NCBI GenBank assembly: GCA_030828465.1
Contig: JAURCL010000004.1
Coordinates: 22,143 to 86,142, forward strand
Direction: 5' to 3'
Origin: Acidimicrobiales bacterium
GTDB lineage: Bacteria; Actinomycetota; Acidimicrobiia; Acidimicrobiales; Ilumatobacteraceae
DNA: 64,000 nucleotides
Made by a program: the position numbers and the translations under genes. Below, in pieces: positions 61,485 to 64,000 of the stretch; position 1 is the stretch's first letter, and every line of letters starts with the position of its first letter. Below the pieces are notes generated by a model. That model saw only the letters and a list, made by a program, of their open reading frames with translations, searched no databases and was not told where the DNA came from.

Positions 61485-62725
61485 GCGGGCTGTCACGGTC
61501 GGTATCCGCATCGGCGGCGGGGCCGACCCCACTGGCTGGTGTGTCCGAGGTGGAATGGGGCGAGCTCATTGAACTGGGTCGGGTGAGCGGATCGATACAA
61601 GCGGACCGGATCGCGCACGTCTTCCGCGAGGTTGAACTCAACGAGGACAACCTTGGGGTGATCACGGGGGCGCTCGCGGCGCTTGGCATCGAGATCGATG
61701 ACCGGGTCGATCACGATGACACCCCGTCGGGTGGGGTCGAGCCCGACGATGAACGTCTTCTCGATCGGCGCAGAACGAGTCGCCGCAGTCGACGGGGTCG
61801 CGGCGAGGAAGGCGGGGGTGACAGCGTTCGGATGTATCTCCGCGATATCGGACGCGTGGACCTGCTCACGGTCGAGGAGGAGCGTCGGCTCGCCCAACTC
61901 GTCGAGCAGGGAGCCGCCGCTGCCGCCTCGATTGACGCGGGGGTGGAGGATCCGTCGGAGGTCCGACGGCTGACGCGCCAGGTGACCATGGGGGAGCGGG
62001 CGCGGAGCGAACTCACTCAGGCCAACTTGCGCCTGGTGGTGAGCATCGCCAAGCGGTACTCGAACCGCGGGGTGCAACTGCTCGATTTGGTGCAGGAGGG
62101 CAACCTCGGGTTGATGCGCGCGGTCGAGAAGTTTGACCACGCCAAGGGTTTCAAGTTCTCCACCTACGCGACCTGGTGGATCCGTCAGGCGATCACTCGC
62201 TGCATCGCTGATCAGGCCCGCACCATTCGGATACCGGTGCACATGGTGGAGCACATCAACCGCCTGACCCGGACCCGTCGCGAGTTGTTGTCGGAGTTGC
62301 AGCGCGACCCGACTCCCGAGGAGTTGGCGGCCCGACTGCACATCCCGGTGGAGCGGGTTGAGGAGTTGCTGCAGATCTCCATGGAACCGCTCTCTCTCGA
62401 CAGCCCGGTCGGAGAGGACGAGGACGCGGTGCGCGGTGACTTCGTTGAGGATCGTGGTTCAGCGCCCGACGCGGAAGCCGCGCGGCGCCTCCTTGAACAG
62501 ACCGTCAATCAGGTGATTGGTTCCCTCGGTGAGCGCGAGGCCGAGATCATCAAGATGCGTTTTGGGATCGGACCGACGAACAGCCGCCCGCTGACCCTCG
62601 AGGAGGTGGGCGAGGCGCTCGGGGTGACCCGGGAGCGCATCCGACAGATCGAGGCGAAGACCCTGATGAAGCTTCGGTCGCCCGGAACGGCTCAGCGCCT
62701 CCGCGAGTTCCTTGACGCCGAATGA
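61481..62725 (+). CDS. rpoD: primary sigma-70 factor RpoD/SigA
   Basis: Principal sigma factor, 414 aa. Region 1.1-like residues are [14 protein letters not shown] through ALGIEIDDR. Region 1.2 is [20 protein letters not shown]. Region 2 has [20 protein letters not shown]-type [19 protein letters not shown] and [16 protein letters not shown]. Region 3 has [14 protein letters not shown], and region 4 has [23 protein letters not shown] at 61481 overlaps dnaG; GTG at 61541 is a possible shorter start. The dnaG-rpoD pairing is the classic macromolecular-synthesis arrangement. Confidence 0.95.
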
Positions 62726-62769: not shown

Positions 62770-62842
62770 TCCGGGATAGCTCAGTTGGCAGAGCAGCTGA
62801 CTGTTAATCAGCGGGTCGCAGGTTCGAGCCCTGCTCCCGGAG
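62770..62842 (+). tRNA. tRNA-Asn (GTT)
   Basis: Full cloverleaf: acceptor arms TCCGGGA / TCCCGGA, anticodon stem GCTGA / TCAGC around CTGTTAA with GTT at 62803-62805, T-arm GCAGG-TTCGAGC-CCTGC. The 3' CCA is not encoded. Confidence 0.97.
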
Positions 62843-62849
62843 CTGGGAG

Positions 62850-62877: not shown

Positions 62878-62950
62878 GGGGCGGTAGCTCAGTGGTCAGA
62901 GCAAGGGACTCATAATCCCCGGGTCGTGGGTTCGATCCCCACCCGCCCCA
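62878..62950 (+). tRNA. tRNA-Met (CAT)
   Basis: Acceptor arms GGGGCGG / CCGCCCC, anticodon CAT at 62911-62913 in loop CTCATAA, T-arm GTGGG-TTCGATC-CCCAC. The outer anticodon-stem pair (A-C) is mismatched. CCA is not encoded. The first acceptor pair is G-C, so it is not the initiator. A lysidine-modified tRNA-Ile2 cannot be ruled out by eye. Confidence 0.9.
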
Positions 62951-63014
62951 CCGAGTTGGTTTGGGGTGCTATTGGGTCGTTCCCCAGCATCTGATGAGGC
63001 GGTGAAGCGAAGTT

Positions 63015-63039: not shown

Positions 63040-63045
63040 TAGACA
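63040..63045 (+). promoter_or_regulatory. -10-like box TAGACA, leaderless spacing
   Basis: TAGACA ends 6 nt before the GTG at 63052, the same spacing as the TANNNT boxes elsewhere in the window, though the last base is A. It supports 63052, upstream of the in-frame TGA, as the true start. Confidence 0.35.
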
Positions 63046-63051
63046 AGGCCT

Positions 63052-63411
63052 GTGAGCGTCACGATCTACCACAACCCGCATTGAGGCAGCAGTAGCAATG
63101 CCGTGAGCATTGCCGAGGAACTTGGCGTCAAGTTCGAGATCGTCCTCTACGGGAAGACCCCGCCCGACGAGCCGACACTGCGCGACATCATCGCGAAACT
63201 TGAGGACCCGGCGACCAACCTGGTGCGTCGCGACAGCCTCTGGAAGAAACTCGGTCTCACCGAGGATGACGTGGCGACTGACGATCAGGTGGTGGCCGTG
63301 CTCGTGAAGCACAAGCAACTGCTCCAGCGACCGGTCGTGGTGACCGCGACTCGGGCGATCATCGGCCGTCCGAAGGATCGGGTGCGAGAGCTCCTCAGCG
63401 GCGACGGGTGA
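63052..63411 (+). CDS. arsC: ArsC-family reductase with selenocysteine (in-frame TGA) at the catalytic position
   Basis: Arsenate-reductase-like protein of 119 aa if TGA 63082-63084 is read as selenocysteine. The start reads VSVTIYHNPH, then TGA, then GSSSNAVSIAEELG. In the ArsC family the residue after NPx is the catalytic cysteine (E. coli NPACGTSRN). The three arginines that bind the oxyanion in E. coli ArsC are matched by R59 (LVRRD), R93 (LQRPVVV) and R106 (GRPKDRV). No other stop breaks the frame. A 7-bp hairpin follows the TGA at SECIS distance. The redox partner and substrate are unknown; some family members act on substrates other than arsenate. A nonsense mutation is the alternative reading. 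Confidence 0.82.
63085..63113 (+). promoter_or_regulatory. candidate bacterial SECIS element
   Basis: Perfect stem GCAATGC (63095-63101) / GCATTGC (63107-63113) with loop CGTGA. The loop starts 17 nt after the TGA and has G at its second position. The known rules for bacterial SECIS elements, as I recall them, ask for 16-37 nt to the loop, a loop of 3-14 nt and a G in its first two bases. All are met. Confidence 0.7.
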
Positions 63412-63414
63412 CGG

Positions 63415-64000
63415 TCAATCCTGGCGATGCCAGGCGTAGGCCGAGGAGATGATCTCGCGCAGACGGCGCGTCGCTGTCCACCCGAGCGTTCGCTCCGCGA
63501 GGGTCGAATCGGCGAACACCGTCGCCGGGTCACCCAGTCGGCGTCCCGAGACGCGATGGGGTACCTCGGCACCATGGATCTCGGCGGTCATCGCGAGGAT
63601 CTCGAGCACCGAGGTGCCGGTACCCGTGCCGAGATTCACCGTCAAGTTCTCACCTCCGGCCTCGAGATAGCGCAAGGCCGCCAGATGGGCCTCTGAGAGA
63701 TCCTCGACGTGGATGTAGTCGCGCACCCCTGAGCCATCCGGTGTGTCGAAATCGGTGCCGAACACCTCGACCGGACCGACGTCGGTGAGGGCCGCCTGCA
63801 TCACGAGTGGCACGAGATTGGTCGTTGAGCTCCAGTCCTCGCCGATCACGCCGTCGGCACTGGCGCCGGCGGCGTTGAAATAGCGCAGGCTCGCCCAGCG
63901 CAGACCGCTCGTGACGCCGTACCACTCGATGATCCGCTCCATCATCGCCTTGGTCTCGGCGTAGACGTTCTCGGGTCGGATTGGCGCCTCCTCGGTGATC
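63415..64000 (-). CDS. galE: UDP-glucose 4-epimerase (C-terminal part, 5' end outside window)
   Basis: Short-chain dehydrogenase-type sugar epimerase that interconverts UDP-glucose and UDP-galactose. The part in the window starts before the catalytic pair Y-x3-K (NVYAETKAMME). It continues with LRYFNAAGASADGVIGEDWS, VFGTDFDTPDGSGVRDYIHV, VNLGTGTGTSVLEIL and a C-terminal DPATVFADSTLAERTLGW. RYFNAAGA and RDYIHV are GalE signatures. The N-terminal NAD domain lies beyond 64000. It ends 3 bp after the convergent ArsC gene. Confidence 0.93.
   Translation of the reverse strand, partial: ITEEAPIRPENVYAETKAMMERIIEWYGVTSGLRWASLRYFNAAGASADGVIGEDWSSTTNLVPLVMQAALTDVGPVEVFGTDFDTPDGSGVRDYIHVEDLSEAHLAALRYLEAGGENLTVNLGTGTGTSVLEILAMTAEIHGAEVPHRVSGRRLGDPATVFADSTLAERTLGWTATRRLREIISSAYAWHRQD

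Follow-up and report, generated by a model that had tools for sequence, protein, structure and literature searches.

The gene and its surroundings

The window, by which we mean the whole 64,000-nucleotide stretch of Ilumatobacteraceae DNA that was analysed, contains near its end a predicted ArsC-family gene, which stands alone between tRNA genes and galE (Table 1). The reading frame is interrupted once only, by a TGA, and the read-through translation has the form VSVTIYHNPH-TGA-GSSSN...LLSGDG-stop. This single break had been reported in the initial annotation and is confirmed on the sequence, as is its location at the catalytic cysteine when the protein is aligned with E. coli ArsC. An in-frame TAG (63040–63042) lies four codons upstream of the GTG at 63052, which is the sole ATG, GTG or TTG between that TAG and the TGA. 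The tRNA with the CAT anticodon lies close before the gene, and the 3′ end of the same tRNA also precedes the gene in L020, a locus from the same genus.

Table 1. Positions of the ArsC-family gene, its predicted elements and its neighbors in the window.
Feature	Position	Strand	Remarks
tRNA-Asn (context)	62770..62843	+	upstream of the ArsC-family gene
tRNA-Met (CAT) (context)	62878..62952	+	directly upstream of the ArsC-family gene
TAGACA, leaderless-type −10 box	63040..63045	+	begins 12 nt before GTG 63052
ArsC-family selenoprotein gene, predicted	63052..63411	+	GTG start, TGA stop; 119 residues; predicted Sec is residue 11
In-frame UGA, predicted Sec codon	63082..63084	+	position of E. coli ArsC Cys12
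Predicted bacterial SECIS hairpin	63095..63113	+	7-bp stem GCAAUGC/GCAUUGC, loop CGUGA 63102–63106
GTG of the mechanical 102-residue ORF (false start)	63103..63105	+	inside the SECIS hairpin loop
Arg59 codon	63226..63228	+	E. coli ArsC Arg60; R in 98/98 Sec rows
Arg93 codon	63328..63330	+	E. coli ArsC Arg94; R in 98/98 Sec rows
Arg106 codon	63367..63369	+	E. coli ArsC Arg107; R in 98/98 Sec rows
galE (context)	63415..63999	−	convergent; extends past the end of the window; its partial protein scores 212.8 bits with TIGR01179 (cut-off 262.3)

Conservation of the in-frame TGA

A search of 200 genomes of the family gave matches in 85, from which 70 regions, each from a separate genome, were aligned (L019–L088). 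The active-site codon is TGA in 64 of these and a Cys codon in six. Eighty further loci were taken from named genome records (the best 80 of 263 relatives), which overlap with the family collection; over the 150 loci, some of them counted in both sets, the codon is TGA in 139, TGC in eight and TGT in three. Among 296 genomes drawn from across the class, 101 had matches, many of them distant, and 18 further loci were aligned, some being genomes of the named-record set, with TGA in 11 and TGC in seven. Partial or paralogous matches (G016, G132, G150, G151, G164 and the second matches of G037 and G012) were left out of all counts, as were the 33–40% identical matches in the window's genus. Two of the records, titled Bifidobacterium breve (L100) and Vicinamibacterales (L125), do not fit a gene of Ilumatobacteraceae type, and are probably mislabelled or mixed MAGs.

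The best 120 homologues in the protein database, one of which is the window's own, were also inspected. Exactly 102 residues are found in 46 of them, with a start corresponding to the GTG at 63103, and this is consistent with the same TGA being present in their genes. Another 73 have at least 112 residues and have Cys at the site in every case, and the Cys forms align at the same residue, which was one of the checks suggested for this locus. Gene finders that take the UGA as a stop lose the active site; the initial annotation had predicted that they would begin this gene at 63103, which is what the 102-residue proteins display.

The window's genome is a draft (1.83 Mb, 99 contigs, 92.6% complete), and one base is enough to turn TGC or TGT into TGA. 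On these grounds the codon might be an artefact of sequencing or assembly, or else a recent nonsense mutation in a gene that is decaying. Against this stand the recurrence of the TGA in the separate family genomes and in the overall set, the truncation of the 46 database homologues at the same place, and the downstream frame, which is open and constrained (pN/pS 0.379 for the 3′ part, over 400 random pairs). An error is refuted by the independent relatives with the same TGA, and a chance nonsense mutation, already thought improbable at this one codon, is hard to reconcile with 139 loci of 150. Further disabling mutations in relatives, which would have pointed to decay, are absent from most of them: the TGA is kept and the frame is otherwise open. 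Error and decay can thus be given practically no probability.

The abundance of 102-residue proteins in the databases would also fit the idea that the real protein is the ORF starting at GTG 63103, with the part upstream untranslated. The nine codons before the TGA, however, specify (V)TIYHNP, a conserved strand of ArsC, and their pN/pS in the same 400 random pairs is 0.326; they are under purifying selection. The leaderless-type box described below likewise points to a start before the TGA, and a protein lacking the catalytic residue would hardly be expected to retain all three catalytic arginines. We consider the short protein extremely improbable.

Of the 64 family TGA loci, 62 have T as the last base of the codon that precedes the TGA (63079–63081 in the window), compared with three of 18 Cys loci, some of them duplicated, in which the base is otherwise C (13) or G (2). 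A T before the UGA is possibly a 5′ context specific to Sec.

The initial annotation had also noted a leaderless-type box at the start. A TANNNT at such spacing is the pattern of leaderless transcription in actinobacteria. Of 106 loci, 67 have such a hexamer starting 11–13 nt before the start codon, whereas the other offsets have 1.0 each on average, so the box is common in relatives, although the window's own TAGACA is not a strict TANNNT. From the leaderless pattern it follows that about 30 nt would separate the UGA from the 5′ end of the mRNA. Read-through of selW in Campylobacter is described in PMC11955535, whose consulted excerpts do not mention leaderless mRNA, and in the excerpts of PMC3847290 selenoproteins appear in the reference list only.

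Predicted SECIS hairpins

Bacterial SECIS elements lie just downstream of the UGA and have a conserved G in the apical loop, according to the relevant section of PMC2398784. This locus shows both features, in the predicted structure and in the constraint on it. The 64 family TGA loci had been picked by homology search, without any hairpin criterion. In all 64, the six pairs of the stem CAAUGC/GCAUUG (here called type 1) are formed, and GU is present in the loop, again in 64 of 64. This stem starts 11 nt after the UGA; the seventh pair in the window shifts the start to 10 nt. Over the same loci, codons +4 to +9 have a synonymous identity of 1.0, the highest among 97 six-codon intervals (mean 0.571). 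Given that the type-1 stem is almost invariant, its evidence is one of constraint more than of covariation.

When all lineages are taken together there are 101 distinct TGA segments, comprising 70 of type 1 (loop CGUG(A/C)), 29 of type 2 and two of neither, where a segment was put in a class if it formed five or more of the six pairs, at positions derived from the same sequences in which they were counted. Type 2 has a CUUGGC/GCCGAG-like stem with a GGUC loop, starts 17 nt after the UGA, and is hosted by other Acidimicrobiia and by records titled Verrucomicrobia. One or other hairpin is present in 99 of the 101 distinct TGA segments, compared with none of 15 Cys segments. When synonymous codons were resampled (200 draws), the hairpins were formed on average by 0.94 of the 70 and 1.36 of the 29 segments, with maxima of 4 and 5 respectively.

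In the type-2 stem 100% of cells are paired and 11 cells are changed on both sides, and none of 500 shuffles was as high for cells paired, double changes or covariation score. Two measures are within the shuffle range, namely pairs changed on both sides (2; 140/500) and further pair types (4; 150/500). Sliding the partner strand by 1–3 columns abolishes the pairing and covariation signal.

In a 27-nt piece of the window the hairpin is the favoured fold (−9.3 kcal/mol, z −2.84), and the minimum-energy fold of its 45-nt segment is a different one (−12.3 kcal/mol, z −0.57). Rfam gave no SECIS match. RNAalifold found no structure when run on the full set of Sec segments, probably owing to the mixture of two hairpin registers.

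The two segments that fit neither hairpin (L131 and L158) come from TGA-ArsC genes in records titled Acidimicrobiales or Acidimicrobiia, and are perhaps a third SECIS form. Five type-2 Sec-ArsC genes from records titled Verrucomicrobia (L156, L159, L161, L162 and L168) fall among Acidimicrobiia rows in the tree; a transfer between phyla is possible, as is misbinning of the contigs. A type-1-like hairpin was fitted by two of 1688 TGAs; the second of these (3933, minus strand) was rejected because its frame extends over just 7 codons on the 5′ side and 13 on the 3′ side.

Selenocysteine machinery and the distribution of Sec and Cys forms

A search for the selenocysteine machinery in the same genome had been proposed as a check, and all of its components are present: selA (325.6 bits), selB directly after it (243.4 bits, barely above the cut-off of 242.25), selD (307.5 bits), and a tRNA-Sec (63.1 bits, cut-off 47) whose anticodon is tca by ARAGORN. 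A mycoredoxin-like glutaredoxin gene (L189, C22:40421–40597) lies about 4 kb from selD (L009, C22:44744–45649).

In the 64 family genomes with the TGA gene, selA is found in 58 (including a weak match in G114, E 9.5e-4), tRNA-Sec in 55, either in 63 and both in 50. The sole genome with neither is G101, which is 74% complete. The background in the family is, however, high, with selA in 151 and tRNA-Sec in 135 of the 200 genomes. Since selA is common anyway, its co-occurrence with the TGA gene is weak evidence by itself, and the wide spread of selA and tRNA-Sec implies that the pathway serves other proteins too.

The existence of Cys homologues at the same position could suggest that the UGA is read as Cys or Trp, by a changed code or by stop read-through. 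The gene itself ends in TGA, though, as does a sigma-factor-like ORF (recognized by eye) just upstream (62723–62725), and the genome has the full Sec pathway including its tRNA. Together with the near-perfect split of the SECIS-type hairpin between TGA and Cys segments, this makes decoding as Cys or Trp a reading to which we attach almost no weight. Most relatives keep both the UGA and a matching hairpin, and the UGA is therefore likely to be read as selenocysteine. We consider it very probable, from codon conservation, hairpin constraint, the Sec machinery and the Cys homologues, that 63052–63411 encodes an ArsC-family protein whose catalytic UGA is decoded as Sec, directed by the predicted SECIS 10 nt downstream. 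The proposal of a probable selenoprotein made in the initial annotation is thus upheld.

The Cys-form genomes of the clade are G010, G011, G015, G026 and G044. Neither selA nor tRNA-Sec was found in G010, which is 99% complete, and the other four have both, so that loss of the pathway can explain only one of the five. A FastTree tree of 164 rows, with many forks unresolved, gave 13 changes between Sec and Cys, three of which are forced by well-supported branches. We lean towards a picture in which one orthologous gene, expressed from leaderless mRNAs, uses two SECIS hairpins in two registers and has exchanged Sec for Cys, or the reverse, several times at its active site. If this holds, the recoding signal would have moved inside the coding sequence while recoding was kept. 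The combination of two hairpin registers with a leaderless-type start would make the rules of bacterial SECIS recognition testable on one gene, and the closely related Sec and Cys forms, which include one from a genome where no Sec pathway was detected, provide a natural test of Sec retention and loss.

Fold, active site and relation to known families

The protein matches Pfam ArsC (PF03960) with 57.3 bits (cut-off 24). The TIGR00014 arsC equivalog, which is glutaredoxin-linked, gave 99.1 bits for the sequence with Cys substituted for Sec, which is below its cut-off of 106.05; the protein is therefore filed under Pfam ArsC and not under this equivalog. The sequence matches to solved structures include 3rdw (75.2 bits) and E. 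coli 1jzw (66.3 bits). An AlphaFold model, made from a 34-sequence alignment with Cys in place of Sec, has a mean pLDDT of 89.2, and its best 11 PDB matches are all ArsC chains. Compared with the E. coli plasmid ArsC (1jzw, 1i9d), the model has a TM-score of 0.78–0.82 by query length and 34–36% identity over the structural alignment.

The three arginines that had been picked out as conserved are indeed kept. They align with E. coli R60, R94 and R107, which we take to be the anion-binding and catalytic arginines, and are Arg in 8 of 8 Cys rows as well as throughout the Sec rows (Table 1). The active-site motif is U11-G-S-S14 (UxxS), with S14 in 98 of 98 rows. Another Cys is absent from 97 of 98 Sec-ArsC proteins, and any thiol for resolution would consequently have to be external. 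The protein thus shares with E. coli ArsC the three arginines and one catalytic chalcogen residue, and differs from it in the predicted Sec in place of Cys12 and in that its gene does not lie in an ars operon. E. coli ArsC uses glutathione and glutaredoxin, whereas here mycothiol and mycoredoxin would probably take their place.

That ArsC-like selenoproteins had been predicted from marine metagenomes, as stated in the initial annotation, is borne out by the Global Ocean Sampling study of 2008 (PMC2398784), whose consulted section lists 'Arsenate reductase (ArsC) 1' (pfam03960, UxxS) with 77 sequences from 23 samples. An arsenate reductase of UxxS type, with the reference MBT3519430.1, is also listed in the relevant parts of PMC9312934 and PMC13188914, and ArsC-like selenoproteins in deltaproteobacteria are described in a section of PMC1794560. 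The UxxS Sec-ArsC is thus already catalogued, and the family is not new. The present protein resembles the UxxS family, as described in that part of PMC2398784, in its Pfam ArsC domain, catalytic Sec, UxxS motif (here U-G-S-S) and Cys homologues.

A term search of the accessible text of PMC2398784, PMC9312934 and PMC13188914 found no mention of Actinobacteria, and one of the accessible text of PMC5029168 and PMC12013277 found none of ArsC or arsenate. In the open-licence literature searched, no home of Sec-ArsC in Acidimicrobiia or Ilumatobacteraceae was found in print; Ilumatobacter occurs with selenocysteine in one soil metaproteomics paper only, in the text covered by the search. The view that a Sec form in an actinobacterium deserves description therefore holds as regards the host, but not as regards the family. 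What goes beyond the UxxS family as listed is the host (Ilumatobacteraceae/Acidimicrobiia, together with the Verrucomicrobia-titled records), the two SECIS registers and the leaderless-type start; what the present analysis contributes is the host lineage, the natural Sec/Cys series and the two SECIS registers. The Sec-ArsC family known from ocean reads in 2008 now has a named lineage, and an isolate-titled genome, Ilumatobacter nonamiensis YM16-303 (L124). A practical consequence is that many Sec-ArsC copies in public protein collections are cut before the active site.

Two other listed groups are also ArsC-related, namely 'Arsenate reductase 2' (cd03032, in the consulted section of PMC2398784) and 'arsenate reductase-like' (NF041106, in that of PMC13188914), but these are UxxC. 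The UxxC selenoproteins have a second Cys, unlike the UxxS protein described here.

Arsenic context and possible function

No ars operon was recognized by eye around 22 loci (17 Sec and 5 Cys, considering GC3-chosen ORFs, at most two on each side). The window's genome does have, on another contig, an acr3 gene (371.9 bits against a cut-off of 282.8) next to a gene of the ArsR family (81.1 bits, cut-off 55). It also has an ArsJ-associated GAPDH (508.7 bits, cut-off 450) and an ArsJ fragment which is cut by the end of the locus (238.7 bits, cut-off 400), as well as two mycoredoxin-like glutaredoxins (70.7 and 55.8 bits), neither of which reaches the cut-off of 89.5. In the family, 38 of the 69 genomes that have the ArsC gene (Sec or Cys) also have acr3, compared with 10 of 131 others, as raw counts uncorrected for kinship, genome size or completeness. 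No acr3 was found in 30 of the 64 Sec-ArsC genomes, including G013, which is 91% identical and 98% complete.

The predicted fold, the three arginines and the acr3- and ArsJ-type genes all fit reduction of arsenate, which is the likely function of Sec-ArsC. A true selenoprotein could, however, be a general thiol/selenol oxidoreductase in the ArsC fold, acting in demycothiolation or on another oxyanion. This is suggested by the stand-alone position of the gene next to tRNAs and galE, the many Sec-ArsC genomes in which acr3 was not found, the missed TIGR00014 cut-off, and the fact that the ArsC fold is common to Spx proteins. Spx/MgsR regulators have a CxxC redox switch, which is not present here, since nearly all of the proteins have no second Cys; the arginine triad is kept without exception in the Sec rows; the best matches in fold and in sequence are to ArsC, with Spx scoring at best 28.8 bits against 75.2; and the association with acr3 is positive. 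On balance we regard a role other than arsenate reduction as rather unlikely.

As an arsenate reductase, the protein might work as follows. Transcription would begin at GTG 63052 or right beside it, giving a leaderless mRNA. SelB, loaded with Sec-tRNA, would attach to the loop of the hairpin, and Sec would be inserted at residue 11. The mature protein, having no Cys of its own, would bind arsenate or a similar oxyanion through the selenolate and the three arginines and reduce it to arsenite. An external thiol would next have to resolve the selenenyl adduct, and mycothiol acting with a mycoredoxin-like glutaredoxin is the probable candidate. The arsenite would exit the cell through Acr3.

The ArsJ-associated genes of the window's genome lie in a row with an ArsR-LMWPc fusion on contig C76 (L188, minus strand, 3–2163). 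This row is predicted to be an organoarsenical efflux set, and the ArsR-LMWPc fusion could be an alternative arsenate reductase in this genome.
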